NCBI RefSeq assembly: GCF_001752395.1
Contig: NZ_MKEK01000001.1
Location: 1,229,044 to 1,293,043 of the forward strand
Direction: 5' to 3'
DNA: 64,000 nt
Source: Rheinheimera salexigens
GTDB taxonomy: Bacteria > Pseudomonadota > Gammaproteobacteria > Enterobacterales > Alteromonadaceae
A program made the position numbers and the translations under genes. The notes under the pieces were generated by a model that saw nothing but the letters and a program-made list of their open reading frames with translations, was not told where the DNA came from and searched no databases. Below, piece after piece: positions 7,834 through 39,775 of the stretch. Numbering within the stretch: position 1 is the stretch's first letter; each line of letters begins with the position of its first letter.

Positions 7834-7913
7834 TGGACTATCTAAGTTGCATTATTGAGGGGCGGTTTTACGGCGTGTTAGTGTGGGTAAACCGCCCCTT
7901 ATATACACTGAAG
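7834..7913 (-). repeat. Palindromic dispersed repeat, copy A (short form)
   Basis: Short member of the repeat family also found at about 18.5 and 39.7 kb, here in reverse orientation. The perfect 10-bp stem GGGGCGGTTT (7859-7868) / AAACCGCCCC (7889-7898) encloses a 20-base loop that matches the TTACCCACACTAACACGCCGTA core of the long copies. Shared flanks are TGTATAT on one side and CCTCAATAAT...CTTAG...AGTCCA on the other. It lies exactly between convergent acpS and barA, so it may act as a two-way terminator, although no long U-tract follows on either strand. Confidence 0.8.
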
Positions 7914-7921
7914 TTTAGCAT

Positions 7922-10681
7922 TCACCCTTCAACATCTGGCCATTCTGGCCATTGTTGCTGTTCTTGTAACAAGGTCTGCAGTAAATCGTCTAATTCAAAA
8001 AATTCAGGCTCTAAAGTTTGTAGCGGGACTTGCTGCTTTAAGCTGGTTTCAATAATCTCGGCTAACTGTTTTAACCTTGGCACGCCGGTATAACAACAGC
8101 CGCCATGCAATTTATGAATATGCTGTAATAAAGCAGCACGGTCGTGTTGTTTAATGGCTTGCTGTATAGCGAGTTGGGTCGGCTCTATGCTGCTAATTAA
8201 CATCGCTAGCATATCCTGCATTAGGTTAACTTTACCGTTAGCTTGCTGTAAAGCTAGTGCCCAGTCGACTATTTTGCTTTCTGGCCAAGCTGGGGTAGGG
8301 TTAATGGCAGCGGTTGCTGTAATCTGCTTATGCTGGCAGAACTCTTGTAAAATACACTGCAGCATCTTTTCATCTAGCGGCTTACTTAAAAACTCATCAA
8401 AGCCGAGCATCATTAAACGCTCACGCTCGCCATCGGCAGTATGTGCGGTTACGGCAATTATAGGCGTATGTTCATTTAGTGAGCTTTGTCTAATACGCTG
8501 ACAGGCATTAATACCATCCATAATCGGCATATTAATATCTAAAAAGATAATGTCATACACATGCTGGGTGGCTTTGTGCCAAGCTTCGGCGCCATCAAAA
8601 GCCGATTCTATGTGCTCAACTTGTTCAGCCAATAAGGTATTTATTAATTTTAAATTAGCTTCATTATCATCCACAGTCAGCACTTTTAACTGCGCTTTTT
8701 TGGGCAATAGTATTTCATCGCTACTGGCTTGATGCTGTAAATAAGGATGGGCTAATGCCATGGCCAATTTAGTTAAATGAGCTGGTTTGGATAAACAAGC
8801 GTCTGCACCAGAATTAAGCAATGTTTCGCGAATACTGGGGGATAAAGTATTAACCAATAAGTACAGATAATCGGTTTGCGGTTTAATTTTTTGCATCACG
8901 CTAATAATGTGATTAACTTGATTAATCGCTACTGTTTTACCAATGATAGCAATATCATAATGTTGTTGTTGGGCTAGCGTGTGCTGTAACTGGCTTAAGG
9001 TACTGCAAATGGTCACGTTTAAATACCAACTTTGTAACAGCTGGAGCATGGCTTCACGTGAATGTTGTTGTGGCTCAAAGTACAGCACGGTTTTCTGCTC
9101 TAATACTGCGATAGGTAAGTTTTCTGCCACGGTTAATTGATGGCGTTTACATTTAAGCGTAAACCAAAAAGTAGAGCCTTCAGCTTGAGTACTTTCAAAA
9201 CCAATTTTCCCGCCCATCGCTTCCACTAAACGTTGCGAAATCATTAAACCTAAGCCTGAACCTGATTGATGGCTACTGGGATCAGAAGAGCCAAAACCAT
9301 GGAATAATTGTTGTTGTTGTTCACTGCTAATACCACGGCCGGTATCTTGAACTGAGCAATGTAAAATTATTTGGTCATCATTTAAAGAATTACAGCTGAC
9401 TCGAATCACGATACTGCCATGGTCAGTAAATTTAATGGCATTACCGGCAATATTCATCAGCACTTGGCTAAAGCGCTTCGGATCAGCAATGATGTCATCC
9501 GGACACTCAGGATCGATCATTAGCACTAATTCTAAATATTTATCAAACGCATTAGCAGCTAACAATTCAGTTGCGTCGTTTAACATATCGCGCAGTGAAA
9601 ATGGTTCAGGATTAATAGACAGTCGACCTTCTTCTAACTTAGAAAAATCTAGGACATCATTTACTAAGTGTAAAAGGCTATTAGCAGACTTTTGAATAGT
9701 GGTTAAATAGTCATGTTGGTTACTGGTTAATTTGGTTTTAAGCACTTGTCGGGTAAAGCCAATAACCCCATTTAATGGCGTACGTAATTCATGGCTCATT
9801 TTGGCTAAGAATTCTGATTTTTGTCGGTTTTCTTCCAGGGCTTTGCGCCGCGCAAAATCGAGTTGCACGTTATGTACTTCTAACTGCTCTAATGTTTGTT
9901 GTAAGTCACTATTAGCTTGATCTATCTGCTGTTGCATTTCATGTTCTTGGCTAACAATTTGGGCACTTAATTTGTTTAACCCTTGCTGCATCTCAATCAG
10001 CTCTTTGGCAGTAGCTTTGGGCTTACGCGTGACTAACGGGATGTTATTAGTATGATCATGATTAATTAATTGTTTAAGTTGGATGTTCATAAGCCGAACC
10101 GGCCGATATAACCGCTGCAAAATATAAAATGCTGGGGCACAGCTTAATAATAAACAACTGATTAAAATTAGTATCATTTCTAACGCACTACTTTGCTGAC
10201 GCAAATGTAATGTATCTTTATGCAAATCTAATACTAAGTAACCTAAGTGCAACTGTTGACCGTTTTGCGCTAGGGTCAGTGGGTGGTAGAATATTAAGTT
10301 AGTTGCAGTTTCACTATAAAAGCCATGTTCAGTTAGATCGGTTTGCTGCTTACTGGCTAAAGCAGTGGCAGTGAATTGGGGATTACTATTATACACTAGC
10401 TGATTTTGCTGATTAAATATGGCTATGCTGGTTAATAAAGGTGAATTGTAGCGGTGGCTAGTATCAATAAGCTGTTGTAAGGGTAACTGTTGTTCAGATG
10501 CCAATAAGCTAGCGCTGGTAATAGCCAGCGGAACGGCAATATGTCGTGCTTGCTCAGATAAAGAAAACTGTAACTCATGGTGACGAACATAGCTAAAATA
10601 GCCGCCAGAGAATACACTAATTAGCAGCGCGGGTAATAAGCTACACAGTAGCAACCAAATACGTAATCTTATTTTTGTCAT
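7922..10681 (-). CDS. barA: Hybrid sensor histidine kinase BarA
   Basis: Tripartite kinase of the BarA/UvrY (GacS/GacA) system controlling csr small RNAs and carbon flux. 919 aa from ATG 10681 (E. coli 918); a longer frame begins 17 codons upstream but MTKIRLRIW matches the usual N-terminus. Order: TM helix (about 8-26), periplasmic sensor, TM (about 168-186), HAMP, coiled coil, HisKA with SHELRTPLNG (His297), HATPase, a first receiver lacking the phospho-acceptor aspartate, a second receiver with FLDINMP, and an HPt domain with HKLHGGCCYTG. Divergent from rlmD with 83 bases between starts; convergent with acpS. The cognate regulator uvrY is not in the window. Confidence 0.95.
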   Translation of the reverse strand: MTKIRLRIWLLLCSLLPALLISVFSGGYFSYVRHHELQFSLSEQARHIAVPLAITSASLLASEQQLPLQQLIDTSHRYNSPLLTSIAIFNQQNQLVYNSNPQFTATALASKQQTDLTEHGFYSETATNLIFYHPLTLAQNGQQLHLGYLVLDLHKDTLHLRQQSSALEMILILISCLLLSCAPAFYILQRLYRPVRLMNIQLKQLINHDHTNNIPLVTRKPKATAKELIEMQQGLNKLSAQIVSQEHEMQQQIDQANSDLQQTLEQLEVHNVQLDFARRKALEENRQKSEFLAKMSHELRTPLNGVIGFTRQVLKTKLTSNQHDYLTTIQKSANSLLHLVNDVLDFSKLEEGRLSINPEPFSLRDMLNDATELLAANAFDKYLELVLMIDPECPDDIIADPKRFSQVLMNIAGNAIKFTDHGSIVIRVSCNSLNDDQIILHCSVQDTGRGISSEQQQQLFHGFGSSDPSSHQSGSGLGLMISQRLVEAMGGKIGFESTQAEGSTFWFTLKCKRHQLTVAENLPIAVLEQKTVLYFEPQQHSREAMLQLLQSWYLNVTICSTLSQLQHTLAQQQHYDIAIIGKTVAINQVNHIISVMQKIKPQTDYLYLLVNTLSPSIRETLLNSGADACLSKPAHLTKLAMALAHPYLQHQASSDEILLPKKAQLKVLTVDDNEANLKLINTLLAEQVEHIESAFDGAEAWHKATQHVYDIIFLDINMPIMDGINACQRIRQSSLNEHTPIIAVTAHTADGERERLMMLGFDEFLSKPLDEKMLQCILQEFCQHKQITATAAINPTPAWPESKIVDWALALQQANGKVNLMQDMLAMLISSIEPTQLAIQQAIKQHDRAALLQHIHKLHGGCCYTGVPRLKQLAEIIETSLKQQVPLQTLEPEFFELDDLLQTLLQEQQQWPEWPDVEG

Positions 10682-10764
10682 TAAACTCAAGTTTATATTG
10701 TTAAAGCACCCAGGCAGATAATGACACAACACGCCGCACTTGCCTATAACCTGATAGAGAACCT

Positions 10765-12096
10765 ATGGTCAGCATTTACAAAGCAAAAACAAAACCTAGC
10801 CGTATTGGCAATATCATTAATCTAAGCATTGATAGTACTGACTATGAAGTGCAAGGTATTGCTAAAATAGATAATAAAATAGCCTTTGTTACTGGCGCGC
10901 TAGCGGGAGAGAAAGTACAGGCCAAAGTGTTGGAAGACAAAGCTGGCTTTATTAAGGCAAGCGTTACCTCGGTTAAACAAGCTGTGCCAGAGCGAGTAAA
11001 CGCTCCCTGTCGTTATGCCAAACAATGTGGTGGTTGCCAGTTACAATATATCGCCGTTAGTGACCAACAACGCTTAAAACAACTAGGAATTGATGACTTA
11101 TTAAGCCATCAGCTAGGCTTAACTGACCTACCTTGGCAACCGATGCTAGCTGCAGACAACATAGCCTACCGTCGCCGTGCCAGAATAGGCGTATGGTATG
11201 ATAAAAAACAACGCAAATTTAGTATTGGTTTTCGCCAAGCCAATGCCAAACAAATTGTTAATATTCAACACTGCTTAGTGCTATCGCCAGTTTTAGCGCC
11301 AGTATTTACCGTGCTAGCTACGCAATTACCGTTACTGTCGACCAACAGTGCCGTTACCCATGTTGAAGTGATTGACGCCGCAGGCCAAGCTTATATTATT
11401 GTCCGTCATACTCAGCCATTAACTTTGCAAGATAAGCAGCGCTTAATTGATGCTTGGCCAACAGCTATTTGGTTGGGTGAGTTTGAGTCGGGCCAGTTTA
11501 GTCCTTGGCAACCAGAGCATGCACAATATCAAGCGGAATATTCACTGCCAGAGCAAGGGCTACGATTACAGTTTGGCCTTGATAATTTTATTCAGGTTAA
11601 CGCTGCGGTCAATCAAGAAATGGTCAGCCAAGCGCTGCAATGGTTAGCGCCAACAGCAACCGACACTATTTTAGATTTATATGCAGGCATAGGTAATTTT
11701 AGCCTGGCTTTAGCCCAGCAGGTAAAAGCTGTACATGCTGTTGAAGGTATCGACAAGATGGTGCAACAATTATTACATAATGCTAAAGTGAATCAATTAA
11801 GCAATGTCACTGCTAGCCAAGCAGACTTGCATTTACCTTGGCCAAAAGCCAGTTGGAATACTGCTCAGTATAATAAAGTGCTACTTGACCCCGCTAGAGC
11901 AGGTGCCCATGGTGCGATTGAGCAAGTGGTGAAGTTAAAACCTAAAACCATTTTATATGTATCCTGTAATGCAGCAACATTAGCACGCGACAGTAAAGTT
12001 TTATTGGATAGTGGTTACCGTTTAGAAAAGCTCAGTGGCATTGATATGTTTCCACATACTCGTCATTTAGAGTTAATGGCCTTATTTAGCAAATAG
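10765..12096 (+). CDS. rlmD: 23S rRNA (uracil-1939-C5)-methyltransferase RlmD
   Basis: SAM-dependent methyltransferase (formerly RumA) modifying U1939 of 23S rRNA. 443 aa (E. coli 433). An N-terminal TRAM domain (about residues 10-70) is followed by the [4Fe-4S] ligand cluster CRYAKQCGGC (about 81-90) plus a later Cys in QHCLVL, then the Rossmann methyltransferase with LDLYAGIGNFSL and the catalytic cysteine in SCNAATLARD. Divergent to barA and followed by relA, the arrangement in E. coli. A pair of short overlapping frames here are shadows. Confidence 0.95.
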   Translation: MVSIYKAKTKPSRIGNIINLSIDSTDYEVQGIAKIDNKIAFVTGALAGEKVQAKVLEDKAGFIKASVTSVKQAVPERVNAPCRYAKQCGGCQLQYIAVSDQQRLKQLGIDDLLSHQLGLTDLPWQPMLAADNIAYRRRARIGVWYDKKQRKFSIGFRQANAKQIVNIQHCLVLSPVLAPVFTVLATQLPLLSTNSAVTHVEVIDAAGQAYIIVRHTQPLTLQDKQRLIDAWPTAIWLGEFESGQFSPWQPEHAQYQAEYSLPEQGLRLQFGLDNFIQVNAAVNQEMVSQALQWLAPTATDTILDLYAGIGNFSLALAQQVKAVHAVEGIDKMVQQLLHNAKVNQLSNVTASQADLHLPWPKASWNTAQYNKVLLDPARAGAHGAIEQVVKLKPKTILYVSCNAATLARDSKVLLDSGYRLEKLSGIDMFPHTRHLELMALFSK

Positions 12097-12183
12097 CTTA
12101 ATCACAATCAAGGTCGATAGCGTAGTAAAAGCTAAAGTAGCCAAGTAAAAAGTTTAGCCAATAGCGACAAGAGGGATTGATGT

Positions 12184-14382
12184 ATGGTTAAAGTTCGCCA
12201 ATCACATAGCACCGCTTACAACAGTGATGACACTCTAGCCTGGCTAGGTTCACTTGAGTTAACTGAGAAAAAAATCAGTGACTTAATGGCAGCAGAAACT
12301 TGGCTAAAACAGCGTAATTTAGATGCATCAGAGCCTGAAGTGAAAACGGGTTGGGAGATGGTCGAAATTCTTGCTGAGTTAAGAATGGATATCGACTCTT
12401 TATTAGCGGCATTACTATTCCCCATTATTGAAGCTAAATTAATAGATGAAGATAGCTTAGCCGAGCAGTTCTCGAATCATGTCATTCGTTTGCTAAGTTC
12501 AGTTAAGCAAATGGAAGCGATTAGAAGCATTCCTACCGACCCTAACCATAGCGTTAGCCCACAACAAGCCGATAATTTACGCCGCATGCTTTTAGCGATG
12601 GTTGAAGATGTGCGGGCAGTCGTAATTAAATTGGCCGGGCAAATTTGTTATTTGCGCTACGTCAAAGATGCCGATGAAGAAACCCGGGTGTTAGCCGCAA
12701 AAGAAACCAATGCGATATTTGGTCCCTTAGCCAATAGGCTAGGTATCGGCCAATTAAAGTGGGAGCTAGAAGACTTAGCGTTTCGTTATTTACATCCGGT
12801 GTTATATAAGCAGATAGCCGGCTTATTAGAAGAGCGCCGCTTAGACCGAGAACAGTATCTGCAAGATTTCGTATGTTCGGTGCAGCAAAAAATGGCTCAT
12901 GAACAGCTCACCGTTGATGTCCAAGGCCGGCCGAAACATATTTATAGTATTTGGAAAAAAATGCAAAAAAAACAGCTGCCGTTTGAGCAGCTGTATGATA
13001 TTCGCGCTGTGCGTATTGTCACCGATAAAGTGCAAGATTGTTATGCCGCATTAGGCATAGTGCATACTAGCTGGCGCCATTTACCTAAAGAGTTTGATGA
13101 TTATATTGCTACGCCAAAGCAAAATGGCTATCAATCTATTCATACCGTGGTATTTGGTCCGCAAGGTCGGGTGATTGAAGTGCAAATTCGTACCCGACAA
13201 ATGCATGAAGACTCAGAGTTAGGGGTTGCCGCACACTGGCGGTATAAAGAAGGTGCCTCTAATAGTAAATCTGCGGCAAATGATGAAAAAGTAGAATGGC
13301 TGCGTAAGCTATTACAATGGCAAGAAGAAGTGGTTGATTCTGCCGATTTAGCCGAAGAATTACGAAATCAGGTTATTGAAGACCGCGTATATGTGTTTAC
13401 GCCCAAAGGCGATATTGTCGACTTACCTTTAGGCTCGACCCCCTTAGACTTTGCCTATTATGTTCATTCCAATGTCGGACACAGATGTATAGGGGCTAAA
13501 ATCTCTGGTCGTATCGTACCTTTCACCTATCAGTTAAAAACCGGTGATCAAGTTGATATATTAACCGGCCGAGAGCCTAACCCAAGTCGCGACTGGCTAA
13601 ACCCACATCTTGGCTATATAAAATCCAGTCGTGCTCGGTCTAAAGTGCAGTATTGGTTTCGCCAACAAGATAAAGATAAAAACTTAGCCGCCGGTAAAGA
13701 ATTGCTCGACACTGAGTTAATGCGGCTGAACTTGCAATTAGAACAAACTCAAAAGTTATTAAAACGCTTTAATGTTAATTCAATGGATGAATTATTTGTT
13801 GGCATTGGTGGCAGCGATATTAAGTTAACCCAAGTGGTGCACTTTATTCAAAGCCAGCATGATAAGGCGCAAGCACCGGAAATAGATCCGCGCTTAATTA
13901 CCAAGCCATTACCGGCGGCGCTAAAAGCTAAAAGCGATGTTATCGTACAAGGTGTGGGTAATTTATTAACTCATACCGCAGGTTGTTGTCAGCCGTTACC
14001 GGGTGACGCCATTGTGGGTTATATTACCCAAGGTCGTGGCATAGCTATCCATCGTGATGATTGTGAGCAATTTAAAACCTTATTAGACAGCCACCCAGAG
14101 CGGGCAGTTGAGGCTAATTGGGGCGGTAAATATGCTTCGGGTTATGAGGTTGATATCCGGATCATTGCCCATGATCGCAGTAACTTATTGCGTGATATCA
14201 CCAATATTTTAGCTAATGAAAAAGCCAACGTTACAAAACTGTCAAGCAGCTCAGATACTAAAGCGCAAACGGCAGTGTTGGATATGACCTTAGAGTTGTA
14301 TAATTTAGACTCGCTAAATAAATTACTGAGTAAAATTAATCAGTTAGAAGATATAATTGAAGCTAAACGTTTCACTCATTAA
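12184..14382 (+). CDS. relA: GTP pyrophosphokinase RelA, (p)ppGpp synthetase I
   Basis: Ribosome-associated synthetase that makes (p)ppGpp when uncharged tRNA occupies the A site. 732 aa (E. coli 744). The N-terminal domain has lost the HD-box hydrolase residues (FPIIEA where SpoT has HDxxED), as expected of a synthetase-only protein. The synthetase domain has GRPKHIYSIWKKMQKK and the RelA-type EFDD motif before the NGYQSIH loop. TGS (about residues 390-460), a zinc-finger-like region with GCCQPLPGD, and a C-terminal ACT/RRM follow. GAGGGA ribosome-binding site upstream. Between rlmD and mazG as in E. coli; no mazEF pair intervenes. Confidence 0.97.
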   Translation: MVKVRQSHSTAYNSDDTLAWLGSLELTEKKISDLMAAETWLKQRNLDASEPEVKTGWEMVEILAELRMDIDSLLAALLFPIIEAKLIDEDSLAEQFSNHVIRLLSSVKQMEAIRSIPTDPNHSVSPQQADNLRRMLLAMVEDVRAVVIKLAGQICYLRYVKDADEETRVLAAKETNAIFGPLANRLGIGQLKWELEDLAFRYLHPVLYKQIAGLLEERRLDREQYLQDFVCSVQQKMAHEQLTVDVQGRPKHIYSIWKKMQKKQLPFEQLYDIRAVRIVTDKVQDCYAALGIVHTSWRHLPKEFDDYIATPKQNGYQSIHTVVFGPQGRVIEVQIRTRQMHEDSELGVAAHWRYKEGASNSKSAANDEKVEWLRKLLQWQEEVVDSADLAEELRNQVIEDRVYVFTPKGDIVDLPLGSTPLDFAYYVHSNVGHRCIGAKISGRIVPFTYQLKTGDQVDILTGREPNPSRDWLNPHLGYIKSSRARSKVQYWFRQQDKDKNLAAGKELLDTELMRLNLQLEQTQKLLKRFNVNSMDELFVGIGGSDIKLTQVVHFIQSQHDKAQAPEIDPRLITKPLPAALKAKSDVIVQGVGNLLTHTAGCCQPLPGDAIVGYITQGRGIAIHRDDCEQFKTLLDSHPERAVEANWGGKYASGYEVDIRIIAHDRSNLLRDITNILANEKANVTKLSSSSDTKAQTAVLDMTLELYNLDSLNKLLSKINQLEDIIEAKRFTH

Positions 14383-14400
14383 GCTTAACTCAAATAAAAT

Positions 14401-15192
14401 ATGGAAAGCACAGTGACAGATAATATCCCACGCTTACTGAATATAATGGCGAAATTACGCGATACCAATAACGGTTGTCCATGGGATCTTAAGCAAAATT
14501 ACGCCAGCATAGTGCCCTACACCATAGAAGAAGCTTACGAAGTGGCTGATGCTATTGCCCGCGAAGATTTTGTTGAGCTTAAAGATGAACTGGGTGATTT
14601 ACTATTCCAAGTGGTGTTTTATGCCCAGATCGCCAAAGAAGAAGGCCGCTTTCAATTTGATGATTGCGTTGCTGCTATCTGCGATAAGTTAGAGCGCCGC
14701 CATCCGCATGTATTTGGTGAACAGGCGTTAGATGATGCTGATGCAGTACTAAAAAATTGGGAGTCATTAAAAAGCGCTGAGCGTAAAGATAATGGCCAAC
14801 CTAGTGTGTTGGACAATATCCCTCAGGCCATGCCCGCATTAAGTCGGGCCAATAAACTGCAAAAACGCTGTGCTAATGTTGGTTTTGATTGGCCTACTGT
14901 AGAAGGCTGCTGGCTTAAAGTAAAAGAAGAAGTATTGGAAGTTGAGGAAACCGCGGACGGTAGCCCTGAACTGGCAGAAGAGCTAGGCGACTTAATGTTT
15001 GCCTTAGTCAATGTGGTTCGCAAGCATAAATTAGATCCAGAAGCGGTGTTGCGGGCGGCGAATAATAAATTTGAAAGCCGTTTTCGAGCTGTAGAGCAAC
15101 ATATAAGCGCAGAAAATCGCAGCCTAGAGCAGGCGACATTGGATGAAATGGAAGCAATTTGGCAAAAAGTTAAACGCCAAACAAAGAATTAA
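14401..15192 (+). CDS. mazG: Nucleoside triphosphate pyrophosphohydrolase MazG
   Basis: Hydrolyses all canonical and aberrant (d)NTPs to NMP and PPi; in E. coli it lowers ppGpp and removes damaged nucleotides. 263 aa, the same length as E. coli. Two tandem MazG domains: the first with EEAYEVADAI and ELKDELGDLLFQVVF (metal-binding ExxE/ExxD), the second with KEEVLEVEE and ELAEELGDLMFALVN. Follows relA by 18 bases, so the two probably share a transcript. A GTG at 14413 is an alternative start. Confidence 0.96.
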   Translation: MESTVTDNIPRLLNIMAKLRDTNNGCPWDLKQNYASIVPYTIEEAYEVADAIAREDFVELKDELGDLLFQVVFYAQIAKEEGRFQFDDCVAAICDKLERRHPHVFGEQALDDADAVLKNWESLKSAERKDNGQPSVLDNIPQAMPALSRANKLQKRCANVGFDWPTVEGCWLKVKEEVLEVEETADGSPELAEELGDLMFALVNVVRKHKLDPEAVLRAANNKFESRFRAVEQHISAENRSLEQATLDEMEAIWQKVKRQTKN

Positions 15193-15214
15193 TCCAGAAA
15201 GCCTCAGCTTTACG

Positions 15215-15243
15215 TTGAGTGCTTAGCTTGGCTTTGCTATAAT
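15215..15243 (+). promoter_or_regulatory. Sigma-70 promoter for pyrG
   Basis: TTGAGT (15215-15220), a 17-base spacer and a perfect TATAAT (15238-15243) with an extended -10 TG at 15235-15236. This is the best match in the mazG-pyrG gap. Transcription should start near 15250 in a pyrimidine-rich stretch (CTCCC), leaving a leader of about 115 bases before the AGGGG ribosome-binding site of pyrG. No terminator-like hairpin is obvious in the leader. Confidence 0.75.
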
Positions 15244-15322
15244 TTTCTCCCGTCCTGATACCAATTCTTGAACTATCTTTTTCTTCCCTGTGTTTACGCA
15301 CTGGGAGCTTAGTATTTTTTAG

Positions 15323-17002
<1,680 letters not shown>

Positions 17003-17009
17003 TATTTAT

Positions 17010-18370: not shown

Positions 18371-18455
18371 AGCCCTGCATTAGCTTACCGCTAATTCTGG
18401 GCTGCAATAGTTAGTTTAGGCTAAAAGCGTTCCTCAATAATTTATGTTAGTCAGC
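18371..18455 (+). repeat. Degenerate right-half copy of the palindromic repeat
   Basis: Directly after eno. It contains nested short stems AGCCC (18371-18375) / GGGCT (18399-18403) and ATTAGC (18379-18384) / GCTAAT (18390-18395). It then continues as CTGCAATAGTTAGTTTAGG, CTAAAAGCGTTCCTCAATAA and TTTATGTTAG, recognisably the right half of the long repeat that follows at 18477. The left arm is missing. It could still fold at the 3' end of the eno mRNA. Confidence 0.6.
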
Positions 18456-18476: not shown

Positions 18477-18618
18477 CAAGTGTATATACGGTTCGGTTTA
18501 CCCACACTAACACGCCGTAAACCCATCCCTGGGGGCTCATTTACGCCCGTCCAGGGCTGCAATGGTTAGTTTAGGGTAAAACCGAACCTCAATAATTTAT
18601 CTTAAGTTAGTCCACAGT
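18477..18618 (+). repeat. Palindromic dispersed repeat, copy B (long form)
   Basis: Long member of the family. The outer stem GGTTCGGTTTACCC (18490-18503) pairs with 18574-18588 (one bulged A). A second stem is ACTAAC (18506-18511) / GTTAGT (18565-18570). An inner stem is CCCTGG (18527-18532) / CCAGGG (18551-18556), capped by GGGC / GCCC. Flanks are TGTATATAC on the left and CCTCAATAATTTATCTTAAG...AGTCCA on the right. No reading frame. Lies between convergent eno and ppiC; together with the half copy it fills this 308-base gap. Confidence 0.85.
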
Positions 18619-18659
18619 CCAAACTAAACACTCAGCACTCAAAACTCAGCACTAAACAT

Positions 18660-23203: not shown

Positions 23204-23278
23204 TGGCAGGGGCGGCTGGATTCGAACCAACGCATGACGGGATCAAAACCCGTTGCCTTACCGCTTGGCTACGCCCCT
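23204..23278 (-). tRNA. glnW: tRNA-Gln (UUG), distal copy
   Basis: 75 bases including an encoded CCA. Acceptor AGGGGCG / CGCCCCT with discriminator G. Anticodon loop TTTTGAT in an ACGGG/CCCGT stem gives UUG; T-loop TTCGAAT. Identical in sequence to the neighbouring copy. Last gene of the leftward operon. The first base pair is A1-U72, the reverse of the weak U1-A72 of E. coli tRNA-Gln. Confidence 0.95.
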
Positions 23279-23335
23279 GCAAAACGGGGTGTGTCATAAT
23301 CGTTTAATACTTTAAACCATTAACACTAAAATTAA

Positions 23336-23410
23336 TGGCAGGGGCGGCTGGATTCGAACCAACGCATGACGGGATCAAAACCCGTTGCCTTACCGCTTGG
23401 CTACGCCCCT
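23336..23410 (-). tRNA. glnU: tRNA-Gln (UUG), proximal copy
   Basis: Exact duplicate of the tRNA-Gln at 23204-23278, separated by 57 bases. Same UUG anticodon, encoded CCA and A1-U72 pair. A duplicated UUG tRNA-Gln at this place matches glnU-glnW of the E. coli metT operon. Confidence 0.95.
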
Positions 23411-23438
23411 GCTGTACTTGTGTGCACCACTTAAAAAG

Positions 23439-23523
23439 TGGTGCGGAAAGAGAGACTCGAACTCTCACACCTTGCGGCGCTGGAACCTAAATCCAGTGCG
23501 TCTACCAATTCCGCCATTCCCGC
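23439..23523 (-). tRNA. leuW: tRNA-Leu (UAG)
   Basis: 85 bases including encoded CCA, with the long variable arm of class II tRNAs. Acceptor GCGGGAA / TTTCCGC (one G-U pair); anticodon loop TTTAGGT in a CTGGA/TCCAG stem gives UAG (codons CUN). Second gene of the operon. Confidence 0.95.
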
Positions 23524-23541
23524 ATGCACAGGTAAAGTAAG

Positions 23542-23618
23542 TGGTGGCTACAGCGGGAATCGAACCTGCGACCCCAGCATTATGAGTGCTGTGCTCTAAC
23601 CAGCTGAGCTATGTAGCC
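23542..23618 (-). tRNA. metT: Elongator tRNA-Met (CAU)
   Basis: 77 bases including encoded CCA. Acceptor GGCTACA / TGTAGCC; anticodon loop CTCATAA in a CAGCA/TGCTG stem gives CAU. A regular paired 1-72 position excludes the initiator. First gene of the operon, 31 bases after the -10 element. Confidence 0.93.
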
Positions 23619-30802: not shown

Positions 30803-30817
30803 TCAGGTAAAAAAAGC

Positions 30818-31909: not shown

Positions 31910-31930
31910 GTGGATAATCGCTAAGTGATA
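31901..31930. repeat. 15-bp tandem duplication over the prfA stop codon
   Basis: AATCGCTAAGTGGAT (31901-31915) is followed by AATCGCTAAGTGATA (31916-31930), differing only at the end. The prfA TAA lies in the first unit. It looks like a slippage or duplication event that lengthened the prfA-prmC spacer. Confidence 0.85.
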
Positions 31931-31941
31931 GTGATCAGAGC

Positions 31942-32802
31942 ATGAGCCTAACTCCAAACCAAAGCCAAAACATCAGTATAAGGCAATGGCAGCAACAGGC
32001 GAGAGCGGCATTAGCCAATGTCAGCCCAACAGCTGATATTGAAGCTAGGCTCTGTTTATGCCACGTACTCCACGTTAAACCAAGCTACTTATATAGCGAA
32101 GCGGAGCAATTACTTAGCACTGATCAATTACAGCAACTCAGCCGCTTGCTTGAACAACGCAGTAGTGGCCAACCTTTGGCTTACTTATTTGGTTATTGGC
32201 ACTTTTACGATTTACAGCTAGAAGTAGCGCCTTGTACGTTAATCCCAAGACCCGACACTGAATGCTTAGTTGAGCAAGCGCTAAGCTTGCCGTTACCCAA
32301 AACAGCGAAAGTATTGGATTTAGGCACAGGTACGGGGGCTATTGCTTTAGCCTTAGCTAAAAACAAACCGCATTGGCAAGTTACGGCAGTTGATTATGTA
32401 CAAGATGCAGTAGCCCTTGCTAAGCGTAATCAGCAGCAATTACAGCTAACCAATTGTCAGGTGTTAGAAAGCAATTGGTTTAGCGCCTTAAAAGCAAAGC
32501 AGTTTGATTTAATTGTTAGCAATCCCCCTTATATCGACAGCAGCGATGAGCATTTAGCAGCACTAGCCTTTGAACCCATAACAGCTTTAACTTCAGCTGA
32601 GCATGGATTAGCAGATATTCGCTATATTATTCAACAGGCTCCACAGTATTTAACCACTAATGGTTGGTTATGGTTAGAACATGGTTATAATCAAGCCGAA
32701 GCAGTACAAAGCTTATTACAACAACAAGGTTTTACTCAAGTTGAGTCTAAACAAGATTATGGCGCTAATTGGCGTATAACCGGCGGGTGTTGGCTCAATT
32801 AA
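31942..32802 (+). CDS. prmC: Release factor glutamine methyltransferase PrmC
   Basis: Methylates the GGQ glutamine of RF1 and RF2 (formerly HemK). 286 aa (E. coli 277). Helical N-terminal domain (about residues 10-85), then the SAM-binding VLDLGTGTGAIALALA and the substrate motif NPPYIDS. Directly after its target prfA, with a 32-base spacer. The Shine-Dalgarno is weak (CAGAG). Confidence 0.96.
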   Translation: MSLTPNQSQNISIRQWQQQARAALANVSPTADIEARLCLCHVLHVKPSYLYSEAEQLLSTDQLQQLSRLLEQRSSGQPLAYLFGYWHFYDLQLEVAPCTLIPRPDTECLVEQALSLPLPKTAKVLDLGTGTGAIALALAKNKPHWQVTAVDYVQDAVALAKRNQQQLQLTNCQVLESNWFSALKAKQFDLIVSNPPYIDSSDEHLAALAFEPITALTSAEHGLADIRYIIQQAPQYLTTNGWLWLEHGYNQAEAVQSLLQQQGFTQVESKQDYGANWRITGGCWLN

Positions 32803-32884
32803 TTACAATTAAGCCTAATTGTAATTAATTTCTAACTGCTAAGTTAGGCTATTCCGTTATATTTTATCAAAAGGATAATCATCA

Positions 32885-33265
32885 ATGTATATGGCGTTTA
32901 AACATACTCACTTATTGTTAGTGTTTGTTAGTGTTAGTTTTTTATTAGTCCGTTTTGTTATGAGCTTAAAATCAGCGCCGCTGTTGCAGCGTAAGTTTTT
33001 TAAAATTGCGCCACATGTCATCGATACCTTTTTATTGTTATCGGCAGTTGGCTTAATGCTGGTTTTAAAGCAATACCCGTTCGTTAATCCGTGGCTTACT
33101 GAGAAGTTATTTGCTGTTATTGCTTATATAATTTTGGGCGTTATGGCATTTAAAGGTCGCACTATAGCAATTCGCTGGTTTTGTTTATTAGGTGCCTTGG
33201 GTTGGTTAGCCTTAGCTATCCGGGTTGCTATTACTAAGCAGCCAGTATTTATTAGCATGTTTTAA
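32885..33265 (+). CDS. SirB2/YchQ family membrane protein
   Basis: 126 aa with four predicted transmembrane helices (about residues 7-26, 42-62, 73-90, 97-116). Matches the SirB2 (YchQ) family by the N-terminal FKHTHLLLVF, the mid-protein P-H-V-I-D-T-F-L-L and the late G-R-T motif; function unknown despite its name (invasion regulator). In E. coli sirB2 is followed by sirB1 (ychA) and kdsA; here sirB1 is absent and kdsA follows at once. AAGGA ribosome-binding site. Confidence 0.85.
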   Translation: MYMAFKHTHLLLVFVSVSFLLVRFVMSLKSAPLLQRKFFKIAPHVIDTFLLLSAVGLMLVLKQYPFVNPWLTEKLFAVIAYIILGVMAFKGRTIAIRWFCLLGALGWLALAIRVAITKQPVFISMF

Positions 33266-33301
33266 TCAAGCCTGGTTTTCAACAGACTCTGATAAAAGTG
33301 A

Positions 33302-34174
<873 letters not shown>

Positions 34175-34181
34175 TAATATC

Positions 34182-34208
34182 AAGGGGAGCAGTTAACTGC
34201 TTCCCCTT
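34182..34208. terminator. Hairpin after kdsA
   Basis: AAGGGG-AGCAG / CTGCT-T-CCCCTT with a TTAA loop and one bulged T: an 11-bp stem at the end of the hemA-kdsA operon, facing the convergent DUF3718-like gene. Short T-run only. Confidence 0.65.
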
Positions 34209-34252
34209 AATCTAATAATGATTGGCTCAGAGCTTAAGACAACAAGTTGTTA

Positions 34253-34594
34253 TTAGTTCGCTGGTGGGGCGGTTACATCTTGAATAATTACCCGACCTTT
34301 AATCCGATCTGCATAAGGTTTTAGCATAGAGCTAACTCTATATGCTTGATTAAATTCAGCAAAAGCCATTAAGCGTTTACCATTACACATGACTTTTTCT
34401 ACCGCATTTTGTTTGCTAATACGGTGAGAGCGTAATGTTTTATGTAAACCAACTCGATCATCTTGGGCTGCTTCGCTACAAACCTGAACTAATGCAGTAT
34501 GAATATAGCTATTTGGTTCATAGTCTTGGCTAAATGCGGGTACTGCGAAAGTTGCACTCGCCAGAGAGATTGTGAAAATAAGTGCGGTTTTCAT
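34253..34594 (-). CDS. Small exported protein, DUF3718-like
   Basis: 113 aa. Signal peptide (MKTALIFTISLASATFAVPAFS, cleavage after about residue 22). The mature part has two cysteines (VQVCSEAA and VMCNGKRLMAFA) probably forming a disulfide; the C-N-G-x-x-L-x-x-F-A pattern recalls the DUF3718 family of Alteromonadales. No known function. Transcribed alone, convergent with kdsA; the 141-base gap to the LytTR gene shows no other signal I can name. Confidence 0.7.
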   Translation of the reverse strand: MKTALIFTISLASATFAVPAFSQDYEPNSYIHTALVQVCSEAAQDDRVGLHKTLRSHRISKQNAVEKVMCNGKRLMAFAEFNQAYRVSSMLKPYADRIKGRVIIQDVTAPPAN

Positions 34595-34735
34595 TGTTCT
34601 ATCCTCTGCGTTTTATGGCGTTTGCCACGAAGAGAGTCTGGCAGTACCTAAGCTTTTTTTCTGCCTAATTGGGGTAAGCGGGTTAGACGTTGTTACTAAG
34701 TGACGAGCCGATGTTAACTAGGGATAAGCGGATGA

Positions 34736-35476
34736 TTATTGCGCTAACAGTGTTGTTAGTTGTTGGCTCCAGTTAGTTTTATAGCGACGAGAGGCATGAA
34801 CTTGTTGGCCATTACTTAAGATAAATTGATAATCATTATTATGCGGTTGCAGCTTATGCACATGGTGTAAGTTAAGTAATATCGACCGATGTACTTGAAC
34901 AAATTGCTCAGGTAAACGTAGCAATAGTTCTTTTAAGGTCTCGCGGATCACCATAGTTTCGTTAAGGGTATGAATACACATATAATTACCGGCAGCTTCT
35001 ATCATTAATATTTCTACATCCTCCAGCAGTAGTACCGTGGCACCGGTTTTAAAGCTTAACTTAGTGCTAACGGATTGCTGGCCAAAATGTACCGGTTTAT
35101 TTAAAGCTGTGCAGGCATTGACCAAGCTTTGCGCTAGGCGCTGGCGTGAGACTGGCTTTAATAGATAGTCAAAAGCAAAGTGTTCAAAAGCGGCAAAAGC
35201 AAACTTATCATAGGCTGTAACCAAAATAAAAAGCGGCCGACTCATCGAGCATGACTTATTGGTTTTTTTAAGGATATCAATGCCTTTTATGCCAGGCATC
35301 TGAATATCAAGAAACACCAGATCAATATCAGGTGTTTGCTGGATGCAGCTTAGCGTGTCATCGCCATTATCAAAACAGCCAATAATAACTAAGTTAGGAT
35401 AGGTGGCGAGCTTGGCTTTTAAGTTACTGATAGCCAGCGGCTCATCGTCAGCAATAATAACTTTAAGCGCTGTCAT
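34736..35476 (-). CDS. LytTR-family response regulator
   Basis: 246 aa. Receiver domain (about residues 4-120) with the acidic pair ADDEP, phospho-acceptor Asp in LVFLDIQMPG (about residue 56) and Lys in YLLKPV; then a LytTR DNA-binding domain (about 145-245) with FVQVHRSILLNLHHV. Family members bind direct-repeat promoters. GGGAG lies seven bases before the ATG, which overlaps the upstream kinase gene by 14 bases, so regulator and kinase are coupled. Target unknown; the neighbouring genes give no clear hint. Confidence 0.9.
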   Translation of the reverse strand: MTALKVIIADDEPLAISNLKAKLATYPNLVIIGCFDNGDDTLSCIQQTPDIDLVFLDIQMPGIKGIDILKKTNKSCSMSRPLFILVTAYDKFAFAAFEHFAFDYLLKPVSRQRLAQSLVNACTALNKPVHFGQQSVSTKLSFKTGATVLLLEDVEILMIEAAGNYMCIHTLNETMVIRETLKELLLRLPEQFVQVHRSILLNLHHVHKLQPHNNDYQFILSNGQQVHASRRYKTNWSQQLTTLLAQ

Positions 35477-36539
35477 CTAAAGGCTCCCTGGGTAAAGTAA
35501 TCTGGCTAAAAAAGCCGTTATCACTATTGGCTAAGAGCAAGTTTGCTCTAGTGCCAAATAATAATTCTAGGCGCTGGGCTAAATTAAGTAAATTGGTTGG
35601 GTACTGCTGTTGTGGCCATTTATCCTCAGCGCTGGCACTGGGTTGTGCCAAGCATATCGTTAATGTGGACTGAGTTAACTCGATACTGATGTTAAGCTCA
35701 ATTTTACCCGCTCGTTCTGCCACACTATATTGGATGGCATTTTCTGCTAAAGGGTGCAATAACAACGGCGGGATCCGCACTTTCACTATGTGTTGCGGAA
35801 TTTGCCAATCTAGGTGTAAGCGCTGGCCAAAACGGACTTGTTGAATTGCCATATAAGCGTATAACGCATCCAATTCTTGTTGTAACGGGATAAACTGATC
35901 ATGTTGGTTAGTTAATGAATGGCGTAAATAAGTAGATAAATGGCCAATTAATTGTTCTGCTGCTGCACCATTATGTTCGATGATTAGCGTGTTAAGCGCA
36001 TTTAAGGTATTAAACATAAAGTGCGGATTAAGTTGATAACGTAATACTTTTAGTTGAGCTTGTCGGGCTTTTTTGATTAGCCGTTGTTGTTGTAACAGAC
36101 CAGATAAATGTAATTGATTGGCTTTTATTAACATAAATACCGCTAACCAACCGGCTATAGGTAACAGCACTAACATAAAAGCAGTCGCGTATTTTAGGAT
36201 CGAGTCAACATCATTTAAAGCGGTAGTGGCATAGCTCATTACCAGCGACTGGCGTAACACCACCAGCACGCAACAAAGCGGGATCAACACTAAAAGTAGC
36301 CGCTGTAATTGGTTGAATAACGGCCGTTGACTTTTAAGCTCATGCTGCGCCAGCATACCGGTAACAATAATATTAATCAGGGTAATTAGGCTATAAATCC
36401 ACAAATAGGGCCAGGCCGATTCGTCTTGCAGTGGCACTAGAATAGTAAGATGAGTATATTTAACCAGCAAATAACTTAACCAATACAACAAATGCCAGTA
36501 ACCGAAATGGATCCGTGGTTGTAACTTAGCTTGCTGCAT
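35463..36539 (-). CDS. LytS-type sensor histidine kinase with degenerate ATP lid
   Basis: 358 aa from ATG 36539, five bases after the upstream kinase's stop codon begins to be read through (TAA-TA-ATG) and with AGGA nine bases before; longer TTG or ATG starts overlap that gene. Four hydrophobic helices in the first 165 residues, then the His_kinase signature RYQLNPHFMFNTLNALNTL and an N box (HPLAENAIQYSVAE). Where the DxGxG G1 box should be, the sequence reads LAQPSASAEDKWPQQQYP, so ATP binding may be impaired. Middle gene of a kinase-kinase-regulator operon. Confidence 0.85.
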   Translation of the reverse strand: MQQAKLQPRIHFGYWHLLYWLSYLLVKYTHLTILVPLQDESAWPYLWIYSLITLINIIVTGMLAQHELKSQRPLFNQLQRLLLVLIPLCCVLVVLRQSLVMSYATTALNDVDSILKYATAFMLVLLPIAGWLAVFMLIKANQLHLSGLLQQQRLIKKARQAQLKVLRYQLNPHFMFNTLNALNTLIIEHNGAAAEQLIGHLSTYLRHSLTNQHDQFIPLQQELDALYAYMAIQQVRFGQRLHLDWQIPQHIVKVRIPPLLLHPLAENAIQYSVAERAGKIELNISIELTQSTLTICLAQPSASAEDKWPQQQYPTNLLNLAQRLELLFGTRANLLLANSDNGFFSQITLPREPLDDSA

Positions 36540-36541
36540 TA

Positions 36542-37591
36542 TTATCGGTCCTGCCATGGCAGACAAATATCTACGGTATAGCCTTGAGCTGAGGCTGACG
36601 TTTGTAGTTGAGCAGCTGCGCCAAAATGCTGCAATAACCGATTGCGGATATTATTCAAGCCAACACCGGCGCCGCTGTTATTGTTAGCTAAAGCCTCGCC
36701 AGGACCGTCATCGGCAATTTTTAGATGTAAGTTATGTTGCTGGCGTTGAGCACTTATAGTAATAGTTGCACCTTGCTTACTATTAGCAACCGCATATTTA
36801 ATGGCGTTTTCAATGATGGGTTGTAGCAATAAAGCCGGAATATGTTGCTGTTTTAATTTATTATCAATGCACCAGTTTACTTTTAACTTATTGCCAAAGC
36901 GGGTTTTTTGCAGTTGTAGATAGGCATTAATCGCGGCGAGTTCATCAGCTAAAGACACTAGGCTGTCTGCAGACTTACTTAGCGAGTAACGTAAAAAACT
37001 GGCGAGCTGTTCGGACATAATTTCGGCATCAGCATAGCGTTTAGCTTCTAGTAGCGCACAGAGTGAATTTAAGGCATTAAAGGTAAAGTGCGGATTAAAT
37101 TGATGACTTAAAGCTTGCAGCTCAAGTTGTTGTATTTTATGGCTTAATCTATTGCTTTCAGCTAAGTTTATTCGTTGTTGTCGATGCTCTAGCATAGTTA
37201 AATAACAAGCGGTCCAAACAAAGAAGGCTAATACGGCGGTATCAAGATTACTGATTAACATCCGCAAATTAATATCTTCCTGCTCCCAAAGTAACATCCA
37301 CATGGCATTTTCTGCAGGAATATATAACGCTGCAACAACGGCAACGGCGCTTAATAGCCGCCAACTGCTAAAACGATGAGGTTGCAGGCGGCGATATGAC
37401 CACATCACTAGTATTGCTGTTAACAACATAGCAAACAGCTCACTGGCTAATAACATGGGTAAATAGCGCCAGTTAAAAGCTTTATCGTATAAGGCATTAG
37501 CGTGCCATGAGCTAATGACGCCCATCATAAAAATAGCTAACCAGTAATAGGCATTAAAGCATAATAATTGCCTGAGATTGACCAATGGCAT
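36542..37591 (-). CDS. LytS-type sensor histidine kinase
   Basis: 349 aa. Four hydrophobic helices (about residues 12-30, 42-64, 78-100, 110-130), a short coiled coil, then LSHQFNPHFTFNALNSL with the phospho-accepting histidine, N box PIIENAIKYAVANS and an intact G1 box ADDGPGE with GAGVGLNNIRNRL. AGGAG ribosome-binding site. First gene of a three-gene leftward operon with a second kinase and a LytTR regulator; the sensor has no recognised ligand domain, so the signal is probably membrane-borne. Confidence 0.88.
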   Translation of the reverse strand: MPLVNLRQLLCFNAYYWLAIFMMGVISSWHANALYDKAFNWRYLPMLLASELFAMLLTAILVMWSYRRLQPHRFSSWRLLSAVAVVAALYIPAENAMWMLLWEQEDINLRMLISNLDTAVLAFFVWTACYLTMLEHRQQRINLAESNRLSHKIQQLELQALSHQFNPHFTFNALNSLCALLEAKRYADAEIMSEQLASFLRYSLSKSADSLVSLADELAAINAYLQLQKTRFGNKLKVNWCIDNKLKQQHIPALLLQPIIENAIKYAVANSKQGATITISAQRQQHNLHLKIADDGPGEALANNNSGAGVGLNNIRNRLLQHFGAAAQLQTSASAQGYTVDICLPWQDR

Positions 37592-37700
37592 AACAAGCTC
37601 CTGTACGAAGGAGCTTTAAGTATAAGCCAAAGCAGTCATTCTGCTGATATTGTCAGGGCTTATAATGAATTAATTAAGCTGAACGATAGCTTAGATAAGG

Positions 37701-38393
37701 TTAATTTGTCGTTAAATTGAGATGGGGTTTGCCAATAATATAAGCGCGGCGAAATTCGTTAAAGTAATGGCTTAACGCCATTGCTGCCGCGTTATCTTGC
37801 GCTAACTTTAATACTTCTATCGCCACTTCTGCAGTACAGAGTTGATGTAAATGCGCGGCCTCGCGTAACTGATAACTTGATGCTTGCTCTGGTTGAATAC
37901 CCAACACGGGCAGCGTTGCTAAGTAAGGGCTTTTAAACATTTTCTTCGCTTCGCGCCAAGTGCCATCGAGCATTATAAATAATGGGATTTTACTATTATC
38001 CGTATTAGCGACTTGTAACGGAGAATCAATGCAGCGCTCAGCCTCAGCATATTGCTGTGGGAACACGATTATAGGCGCATATTTCTCATTAGCTAATAAC
38101 GCTAGCATATCAATATCAGGCTTTGTTCTATCCCAAACAAAAGCATGATTATCAGCAATAACATCGGCAATAATACGGCCGGTATTACTGGGTTTATAGC
38201 ACTCACCGGTATACATAATAAAACAAAAAGCACTATGGCTGGCGACATCTGGTTTGGCGTCACAAATACAGGCTGAGCTTGGCAGTAAACACTGCTCGCA
38301 GCGTACTACTTTACTGCCCCTAGCATTGAAAACCCGAGTCGATAAAACCAATTGCTGATTACGCAGAGTTAAAACAGAATTGTTATGTGGCAT
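37701..38393 (-). CDS. DTW-domain tRNA-uridine aminocarboxypropyltransferase
   Basis: 230 aa, TapT/YfiP-like. DTW-domain enzymes transfer the 3-amino-3-carboxypropyl group of SAM to uridine of tRNA (acp3U47 in E. coli). N-terminal zinc-type cysteines RCEQCLLPSSACIC (about residues 31-44), then the signature LDGTWREAKKMF (about 140-151), and late L-R-E-A followed by H-x-L-C-T-A-E. Homology to TapT rather than the paralogous TuaA-type is a guess. No clear ribosome-binding site at ATG 38393. Stands alone. Confidence 0.85.
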   Translation of the reverse strand: MPHNNSVLTLRNQQLVLSTRVFNARGSKVVRCEQCLLPSSACICDAKPDVASHSAFCFIMYTGECYKPSNTGRIIADVIADNHAFVWDRTKPDIDMLALLANEKYAPIIVFPQQYAEAERCIDSPLQVANTDNSKIPLFIMLDGTWREAKKMFKSPYLATLPVLGIQPEQASSYQLREAAHLHQLCTAEVAIEVLKLAQDNAAAMALSHYFNEFRRAYIIGKPHLNLTTN

Positions 38394-38509
38394 GGATGTA
38401 TGAGCACTTAATTAACATAGATAGATAACCTAGAATGACGATATAAATATACCACACAGCAAGTTCAGCCGAGAATATAACACTGGCTATTTTAGCGTTG
38501 AGTAGTAGT

Positions 38510-38542
38510 AAACTACAACCTAACTACAACCAAACTGCAACC
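38510..38542. repeat. Three 11-bp tandem repeats
   Basis: AAACTACAACC, TAACTACAACC and AAACTGCAACC in direct succession, followed by AAACGG. In the 258-base divergent gap between the tapT-like gene and the pseudouridine synthase; no coding sequence there. Confidence 0.8.
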
Positions 38543-38651
38543 AAACGGATATATAACAGTAGATAAAACCATATAAGCCTATATAACATAAGCTTTGTGT
38601 TAGGCTTAGGCCGAAATTATTCAGTACTAAATTTTACTAAAGGGTGTCAAC

Positions 38652-39560
38652 GTGTCTATTGCTGCACAAGCGTCAAAAGTGTCATTACCAGCTGATGCAG
38701 CTGGCTTTGGTACTGTATTTGAATTTTTATGCGCCAAATTTCCGTATATTGCGCCACAGGTTTGGCAGCAGCGCATTGCTGATGGCAAAGTGTATTGGCA
38801 TCAGGGCGAGTGTATTACGGAGCAAACACCCTTTATGCCTAGCAAGCTGCTCTGTTATTATCGCGAAGTAGAAATTGAGCCAGAAGTGCCATTCTCACAT
38901 CAGATTTTATATCAAGACCAACACCTTATTGTTGCCGATAAACCGCATTTTTTGCCGGTTACCCCCGGTGGTCAATACGTTAATGAATGTTTACTGGCAC
39001 GACTTAAACGGCAAACCGGGCTAACTGATATCGTGCCGTTACATCGTTTGGATAGAGATACCGCTGGCTTAGTATTATTTTCAATTAACCCGCAAAGTAG
39101 GGCTGCCTATTATGCCCTGTTTAGTGGTCAGACGATTAGCAAACAATATCAAGCGGTAGCTATGTTATCAGCCGCAGTAAAACAGCAGTTGGAAACAGAA
39201 ACGTTACCGCTAGAGTGGCAGATTAAAAATCGGATCGAAAAAGCCAATCCGCGTTTTATTAATCATATAGTAGCAGGGGAAGCGAATAGCGAGTCTGAGA
39301 TCAGCTTAACTAAGGTGCAAGGTGACAAAGGTTTATTTACGTTGATGCCGTTAACCGGTAAAACCCACCAGTTACGCTTACATATGCTTAGCTTAGGCAT
39401 GCCCATATTACATGATATTTACTACCCCGAATTACAACCTAAGCAGCCCCCGCAGTTTGCAACGCCATTGCAGTTATTAGCTAAAGAATTGCAGTTTATT
39501 GATCCAGTCAGCGGTATTAAGCACAGCTTTGCATCCCAGCTACAACTAACCGCTTGGTAA
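38652..39560 (+). CDS. RluA-family pseudouridine synthase
   Basis: 302 aa from GTG 38652 with AGGG seven bases upstream. N-terminal part (about residues 25-75) looks like an S4-type RNA-binding region; the catalytic domain starts at ILYQDQHLIVADKPHFLPV and contains the catalytic aspartate in LHRLDRDTAGLVLF (about residue 138), then L-T-G-K-T-H-Q-L-R-L-H. The target uridine (rRNA or tRNA) cannot be told from sequence alone; it is not one of the E. coli orthologues I recognise with confidence. Confidence 0.88.
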   Translation: MSIAAQASKVSLPADAAGFGTVFEFLCAKFPYIAPQVWQQRIADGKVYWHQGECITEQTPFMPSKLLCYYREVEIEPEVPFSHQILYQDQHLIVADKPHFLPVTPGGQYVNECLLARLKRQTGLTDIVPLHRLDRDTAGLVLFSINPQSRAAYYALFSGQTISKQYQAVAMLSAAVKQQLETETLPLEWQIKNRIEKANPRFINHIVAGEANSESEISLTKVQGDKGLFTLMPLTGKTHQLRLHMLSLGMPILHDIYYPELQPKQPPQFATPLQLLAKELQFIDPVSGIKHSFASQLQLTAW

Positions 39561-39590
39561 CTGCAACGTTAAATTTAAATCTAAATTTGA

Positions 39591-39621
39591 GTGTATATAC
39601 GGTTCGGTTTACCCACACTAA
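39591..39621 (+). repeat. Left-end fragment of the palindromic repeat
   Basis: GTGTATATACGGTTCGG then TTTACCCACACTAA: an isolated left end of the long repeat, 20 bases before the complete copy C and in the same direction. The right arm is absent, so it cannot form the outer stem by itself, but it could compete with the left arm of copy C. Confidence 0.75.
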
Positions 39622-39641
39622 AAAATAAAAACTCAACACTT

Positions 39642-39775
39642 AAGTATATATACGGTTCGGTATACCCACACTAACACGCCGTAAACCCATCCCTGGGGGC
39701 TCACTTCCGCCCATCCAGGGCTAATGGTTAGTTTAGGGTAAAACCGAACCTCAAAAATTTATCTTAGCCAGTCCA
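39642..39775 (+). repeat. Palindromic dispersed repeat, copy C (long form)
   Basis: Nearly identical to copy B. The outer stem GGTTCGGTATACCC (39654-39667) pairs with 39736-39750, ACTAAC with GTTAGT, and CCCTGG with CCAGGG around a GGGC-type inner loop. Right flank CCTCAAAAATTTATCTTAG...AGTCCA. One left-arm change (TTTACCC to TATACCC) weakens a pair. Lies between the convergent pseudouridine synthase and yaiI genes and, with the left-end fragment, fills this 252-base gap. Confidence 0.85.

Follow-up and report, generated by a model that had tools for sequence, protein, structure and literature searches.

A dispersed palindromic repeat of Rheinheimera salexigens, its empty sites in related genomes, and its relatives in other Gammaproteobacteria

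Why does one structured repeat stand, at several places, between the ends of tail-to-tail genes, and is it a passenger there or a working part of the gene ends? The question is raised by a stretch of 64,000 nucleotides of Rheinheimera salexigens (contig NZ_MKEK01000001.1, positions 1,229,044 to 1,293,043; the window hereafter), in which a preliminary description had marked five pieces of one palindromic repeat family; all five were located where it had placed them. The repeat is multi-copy, and related genomes lack it at orthologous sites. Outside this genome its stem remains paired even as the stem sequence varies, and one of the two strands has more wobble pairs than the other. We judge the chances to be about even that it is a non-autonomous, dispersed palindromic element, resembling a repetitive extragenic palindrome (REP) or a miniature inverted-repeat transposable element (MITE), that is tolerated or used as a 3'-end structure. 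If so, the Gammaproteobacteria have a widespread structured repeat that is not listed in Rfam.

We call the strand used in the preliminary description the TCC strand and its complement, which has GGA in the hairpin loops, the GGA strand; L and G numbers denote loci and genomes. A copy is about 75-140 bp long and reads, on the TCC strand, left outer arm, CACNCTAACACGCCGTRAA, hairpin 1 (CCCATCCCTGGG, TACATCCCTGTA), GGCTC, hairpin 2 (GCCCGTCCAGGGC, AGGCATCCATGCCT), CAACGGTTAG or a variant, and right outer arm. Copies from other genera mostly have their two hairpins closed by a long, variable stem that is self-complementary, and some copies of relatives have two additional hairpins, four in all (L025, L031, L035, L046). 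Extra hairpins of the GAACTTCATCCATGAAGTTC and CAAATTCGTTCCTGACGAATTTG types were seen at L025, L031, L035, L037, L042, L043, L046 and L049; since L046 has them and L047, at the same locus, has none, they are gained or lost as a unit.

Distribution, occupied sites and empty sites

Exactly three matches to the 22-base core ACCCACACTAACACGCCGTAAA were found in the window at up to three mismatches, with none in 100 shuffles; the whole genome gave 24 at the same threshold, and the reversed pattern none. The preliminary description had proposed a covariance-model search for further copies, and a model (R1) built from 39 copies did find the element beyond the window: there were 33 matches in this genome, and every one of 31 genomes of the genus gave 11-65 (1016 matches in total). 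As only 19 pairs, with little of the outer stem among them, are retained in R1, these counts are mainly sequence evidence. Across the class, CGCCGTRAANNCRTCCNTG was present in 25 of 229 Gammaproteobacteria genomes, its reversed control giving one match in one genome, and some single matches inside long reading frames (L058, L070, L072) are probably due to chance. One distant genome, G113, holds 89 copies. Named holders include Xanthomonas, Stenotrophomonas, Arenimonas, Marinobacter, Microbulbifer, Alteromonas, Idiomarina, Shewanella and several Rheinheimera, whose copies have the same extended form as those of the window; at least 120 named stretches carry the element and, among the 80 listed with titles, 78 are gammaproteobacterial and two are titled only Proteobacteria.

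A comparison with Rfam (4227 families, release 15, gathering score) returned only tRNAs for the window and nothing for 20 loci of this and other genera, and no description of the repeat family was found in open-licence papers. One window copy had no match in phages, one G113 copy had none in plasmids, and a single stretch among viral contigs carries the element's hairpins; on these results phage or plasmid cargo was rejected.

The sister genome G269 shows what the sites look like when the element is missing. Short sites with neither a copy nor its arms were found there at acpS/barA, L006/L007 and L015/L016/L022, and at L005, L012 and L013/L014 the element is absent and other sequence is present. 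At the junction of the pseudouridine synthase gene with yaiI, the loci of 29 relatives were compared. In 19 of them both genes are present, tail to tail at a distance of 12-143 bases, and the core is in none of these 19; yaiI is not in reach in the remaining ten, G269 among them. Present and empty sites, as expected of a MITE, were both found. Inverted copies at L152, which share the core and hairpin 2 and not the arms, had suggested that the core was inserted into a pre-existing palindrome; for this genome this is excluded, since the empty sites of G269 have no arms.

Direct repeats of heptamer type (CACTCAG, ACTTAAC, AACACTN) flank many copies, as at 18629-18653 and 39784-39814 of the window and at L015; they also occur at empty sites of G269 (L393, L395, L399) and thus do not depend on the element. 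They are reminiscent of the TAACTGA heptamers of Beggiatoaceae, as these appear in the accessible part of PMC4679880. At L393 and L395 of G269, which match L013 and L005, rows of short hairpins with GTCACT-like spacers stand where this genome has the element.

Eleven loci are shared between species, and at four of them the element was found in both orientations while the flanking genes were collinear (L034/L051 and L050/L513 were left out of the 11, as only one side, or another junction, aligned). Copies at the same locus had a mean element identity of 0.89 when in the same orientation and of 0.82 when inverted; for copies of different loci it was 0.75. Judged by identity, in-place inversion would fit the L032 group with L037, and L502/L507 with L506 (0.85-0.90), and separate insertion would fit L046/L047 with L508 (0.71-0.74), the fourth locus lying in between. 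If the reading proposed above holds, nature has already made some of the experiments: related species with filled and empty sites, single sites with either orientation, and a lineage in which a glycolytic gene seems to have swapped its terminator for a repeat.

Stem pairing, wobble pairs and predicted fold

In 124 named copies the median pairing score of an arm with its own partner was 22, compared with 8 for a control in which each arm was set against those of copies adjacent in the list. Own and other arms scored 21.8 and 8.0 in G208, 21.1 and 10.8 in G109, and 25.6 and 13.7 in G119, three genomes in which the arms differ among copies and the pairing is kept; in G131, G181 and G097 the arms are alike among copies.

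The mismatches that occur in the stem are unevenly divided. On the TCC strand, A.C outnumbered G.T by 164:29 in the named copies (80 copies against 10, with 26 ties), by 149:38 in G113 (111:36 among those seen once), by 30:3 in the class set and by 44:14 in six further genomes. An A.C mismatch corresponds to a G.T pair on the complementary strand, so that in most of the genomes tested pairing is favoured in the GGA strand. Single copies written as GGA-strand RNA had the better fold in 200 of 277 cases and the worse in 71 (better in 36 of 39 for the genus set). The named-set ratio was 33:6 for GGA-sense copies, 38:6 for TCC-sense, 40:9 for convergent and 18:2 for divergent ones (contexts from a simple open reading frame (ORF) caller, with 40 of 134 unclassed and 12 divergent cases uncertain); as the bias is present in every gene context, dependence on transcription of the neighbouring gene is unlikely in general. 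In G113 the TCC-sense copies showed a weaker bias, 92:32 versus 57:6 elsewhere (p 0.012). If the proposed reading holds, the wobble bias would indicate which strand is recognised.

For the GGA strand, the predicted minimum-energy structure contains both hairpins in most copies of the named set (96 of 124), of G113 (82 of 89) and of the class set (14 of 18), and in fewer than half of those of the genus (10 of 24) and of this genome (8 of 22). A Y shape is the usual prediction in other genera; for the window copies this shape is uncertain. Compared with dinucleotide shuffles, both full copies of the window have the more stable fold whichever strand is taken (z -3.1 to -5.0), as has the shortened copy (z -5.2 and -3.2 by strand).

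Gene context and the explanations weighed

The preliminary description had the repeat always between convergent genes. This is true of the three window copies only; of 19 junctions examined in this genome, six are codirectional, 13 are convergent and none is divergent (L062 being classed as in the alternative tally below). Counted by copy, 15 are convergent, nine codirectional and none divergent (n=24; an alternative tally gives 14, nine and none, plus L021, overlapped by a 77-aa frame), these counts covering the 25 copies viewed of the 33 model matches. In relatives the numbers were 12, 16 and none (n=28), and for loci found by the model 12, 10 and one (n=23, L495 being the sister's eno locus). 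The background, taken from 400 kb of the sister genome at gaps of at least 30 bases, was 37 convergent, 141 codirectional and 47 divergent. Convergent junctions are therefore enriched in relatives (24/51 loci against 37/225, p about 3e-7), and since these loci are partly orthologous the p values are optimistic. Only one of 70 loci of the genus is divergent; the element is placed between genes, behind convergent or codirectional ones, as REPs are. In G113 nine copies are convergent, 73 codirectional, six divergent and one unclassed (n=89), the TCC strand being sense in 63 of the 73. The check on flanking genes that the preliminary description had called for thus has two outcomes: convergent junctions are truly in excess in this genus, and no such excess exists in the distant G113 (9/88), for all its 89 copies. 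Some G113 copies lie between genes that, judged by eye, are the neighbours lpxA-lpxB, pilB-pilC and tdh-kbl and seem to be co-transcribed, an arrangement that speaks against a terminator.

In the course of events that we propose, the element would spread by copying or transposition, and its GGA-loop strand would be recognised when folded, as single-stranded DNA or as RNA, by a factor. The insertions that survive would mainly be those behind stop codons, where no promoter is damaged, and the hairpin so placed could act as an orientation-indifferent 3'-end structure, that is, a read-through barrier or a protector of the mRNA end. At eno the element may replace a terminator. Of 31 matched eno loci 30 were retrieved, and the element is in two of these, the loci of this genome and of G269. 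A simple rule assigns a terminator-like hairpin to 24 of the 28 relatives that lack the element and to neither of the two genomes that carry it. No terminator-like match was found at the eno/ppiC and synthase/yaiI junctions of the window, and the two at acpS/barA (shuffle mean 1.1) are both outside the element.

Several results weigh against this reading. No T-tract follows the stem, so that the GC-rich hairpin with T-tract of an intrinsic terminator is not what we see. In this genome own and other arms score alike, 12 and 12, because the arms are alike, and covariation is slight (double change in 4 of 30 pairs, term +0.11). The A.C bias is weak here (12:7, p 0.36) and in the genus (17:7, p 0.06), and G181 (7:8) and G097 (0:1) have no excess. 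The RNAalifold consensus of 39 genus copies is lower for the TCC strand (-54.87 versus -51.21), and neither hairpin appears in the predicted GGA-strand fold of 13 of 22 copies here, because the two can pair together. As for the mobile palindromic element of the preliminary description, its dispersal, its many copies, its sites empty in relatives and its enrichment at convergent junctions of the genus stand, while mobility itself is inferred from presence and absence and not from observed events or target duplications. Nor was a mobiliser found in a search that covered the Y1_Tnp family only: the core (up to two mismatches) is in none of 34 Y1_Tnp loci, four here and 30 in 12 genomes, with flanks of about 1.5 kb, some ended by contig ends. 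No transposase is visible in the window, as already noted, and no gene of the IS200 type or of the REP-associated tyrosine transposase (RAYT) type with the element's ends was found among these loci.

The same facts of gene context can be read more strongly, namely that the host selected the element as a two-way 3'-end module, kept for ending or protecting transcripts from both sides, its spread being secondary. The convergent excess and avoidance of divergent junctions in the genus, the contrast at eno (24/28 versus 0/2), the two window junctions with no terminator-like match, and the occurrence of either orientation at one site, which is compatible with a symmetric function, all speak in its favour. 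We nevertheless consider it rather unlikely: the convergent synthase/yaiI pair is kept without the element in 19 of 19 relatives, the T-tract is missing, the copy at L012 adjoins a canonical-looking terminator, and G113 shows no convergent enrichment, with 73 of its 89 copies codirectional. A reading with no function at all, in which template-switching correction of the palindrome lets the arm sequences drift without loss of complementarity, accounts for arms that differ widely among G208 copies and yet pair, and for nearby inverted copies with a common core and hairpin 2 and different arms, as at L152. It predicts, however, equal numbers of G.T and A.C mismatches, where 164:29 was observed, and leaves the core and GGA loops conserved across genera unexplained; we regard it as highly improbable.

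The GGA loops suggest a further explanation and name one testable protein partner, CsrA/RsmA. The search put no constraint on hairpin 2, whose GGA-strand sequence is CANGGANG in 85 of the 107 named copies where this hairpin was found, in 76 of 85 for G113 and in 10 of 15 for the genus; when the loop of hairpin 1 was left free, all 26 matches here and 84 of 87 in G113 retained TCC. A further tally of hairpin 1, made on loci that had mostly been retrieved by a pattern with a set loop, is biased and was disregarded. These loops agree with the CsrA consensus RUACARGGAUGU from systematic evolution of ligands by exponential enrichment, and with the Rsm motif CANGGANG, as given in the accessible parts of PMC7652899 and PMC6849547, respectively. 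In the window copies hairpin 1 fits the motif, but hairpin 2 (UGGAC, UGGAU) is without the A and fits in part. A transcribed GGA strand with at least two CANGGANG-loop hairpins might then be a dispersed CsrA/RsmA-binding RNA, a sponge or local regulator, and the wobble tolerance does fall on the GGA strand. Like the sponge RNAs CsrB and RsmZ it would offer several hairpins with GGA in the loop; unlike them, it comes in tens of dispersed copies and has its hairpins inside a long stem. Placement with the GGA strand in sense is not preferred (GGA-sense to TCC-sense 5:4 here, 8:8 in the genus, 20:28 in named copies, 10:63 in G113), and the wobble bias is independent of gene direction. A CsrA match was obtained for 194 of the 229 class genomes; among the 25 that have the motif 22 gave one, the three without a match being G226 (98% complete, three copies), G038 (75% complete, one copy) and G123, whose single copy sits in a reading frame. 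We therefore see this as an outside chance, and think it just as improbable that a class-wide family with paired CsrA/RsmA-type hairpins would, by expansion or by flipping at a site, rewire or buffer the Csr/Rsm network lineage by lineage.

Known repeats and features of the window

REPs of the GTAG families, mobilised by RAYTs, are likewise dispersed intergenic palindromes, mostly at convergent or codirectional junctions (a known preference) near 3' ends, sometimes clustered, and with GT pairs in their stems, which have been taken as a hint of RNA function (PMC3733652, in its accessible part here and below). The element differs from them in length (about 75-140 bp compared with 20-40) and in its two inner hairpins and long variable stem, and lies beside none of the 34 Y1_Tnp genes examined, so that mobilisation as a RAYT-dependent REP has no support. 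No GTAG was noticed at the ends of the aligned copies, in which no dedicated search for it was made, the ends being defined in this genus only. Y1_Tnp genes are present in this genome (four) and in 12 of 15 further element-bearing genomes; near the four there are GGGGTCAGA-like motifs and not the core. A second palindrome family (GGGGTCAGA / AGGGTCAGA) was seen near Y1_Tnp genes (L053-L056) and directly beside L005 and L012. Among the ORFs between inverted copy pairs that surround genes in G136 and G164, no transposase was recognised by eye.

The CGTC-1 REPs of H. neapolitanus, whose dimers sit inside 41-bp palindromes (PMC3733652), resemble the element in having two hairpins in an outer palindrome and no dedicated transposase reported in that part of the source. 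CGTC REPs are marked by a CGTC tag, a stem of 8-9 bp and a CCA-like tail that stays unpaired. Their consensus has attcacg before the 3' arm, where the GGA strand of the element has TTYACGG; the remainder of the consensus, compared in its printed form only, is without a match, and these palindromes may belong to the same element family. MITEs of the ERIC/NEMIS kind (PMC3733652) share with the element the size range, inverted repeats, lack of coding capacity and position next to genes; in the element, unlike them, no parent transposase (Y1_Tnp tested) and no terminal repeats common to genera were found, whereas MITE-type terminal inverted repeats are conserved and shared with a transposase gene; the arms of the element differ between genera.

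The copies of the window are flanked by acpS and barA, by eno and ppiC, and by an RluA-family pseudouridine synthase (below the curated cut-off) and YaiI (Table 1). The preliminary description had counted three full copies; those starting at 18477 and 39642 are full, and that at 7834-7913, which keeps the outer stem and core only, is a deletion derivative.

Table 1. Copies of the repeat in the window and their parts (window positions)
Feature	Position	Strand	Remarks
Shortened copy	7834-7913	-	acpS/barA junction; core 7867-7888; both inner hairpins missing
Outer stem of the shortened copy	7858-7868 with 7889-7899		11 perfect pairs; own sequence
Partial copy, right half	18371-18455	+	3' of eno
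Full copy	18478-18617	+	eno/ppiC junction; core 18500-18521
Arms of the eno/ppiC full copy	left 18490-18503; right 18574-18588	+	
Hairpins of the eno/ppiC full copy	hairpin 1 18522-18533; hairpin 2 18545-18557	+	
Partial copy, left half	39591-39621	+	3' of the RluA-family pseudouridine synthase gene
Full copy	39642-39775	+	pseudouridine synthase gene/yaiI junction; core 39664-39685
Arms of the synthase/yaiI full copy	left 39654-39667; right 39736-39750	+	
Hairpins of the synthase/yaiI full copy	hairpin 1 39686-39697; hairpin 2 39709-39721	+	

Apart from the repeat, the window holds four clustered tRNA genes at 23207-23618, two of them identical across 81 bases, and an intergenic tandem repeat of 21 bases in four copies at 1288-1371.

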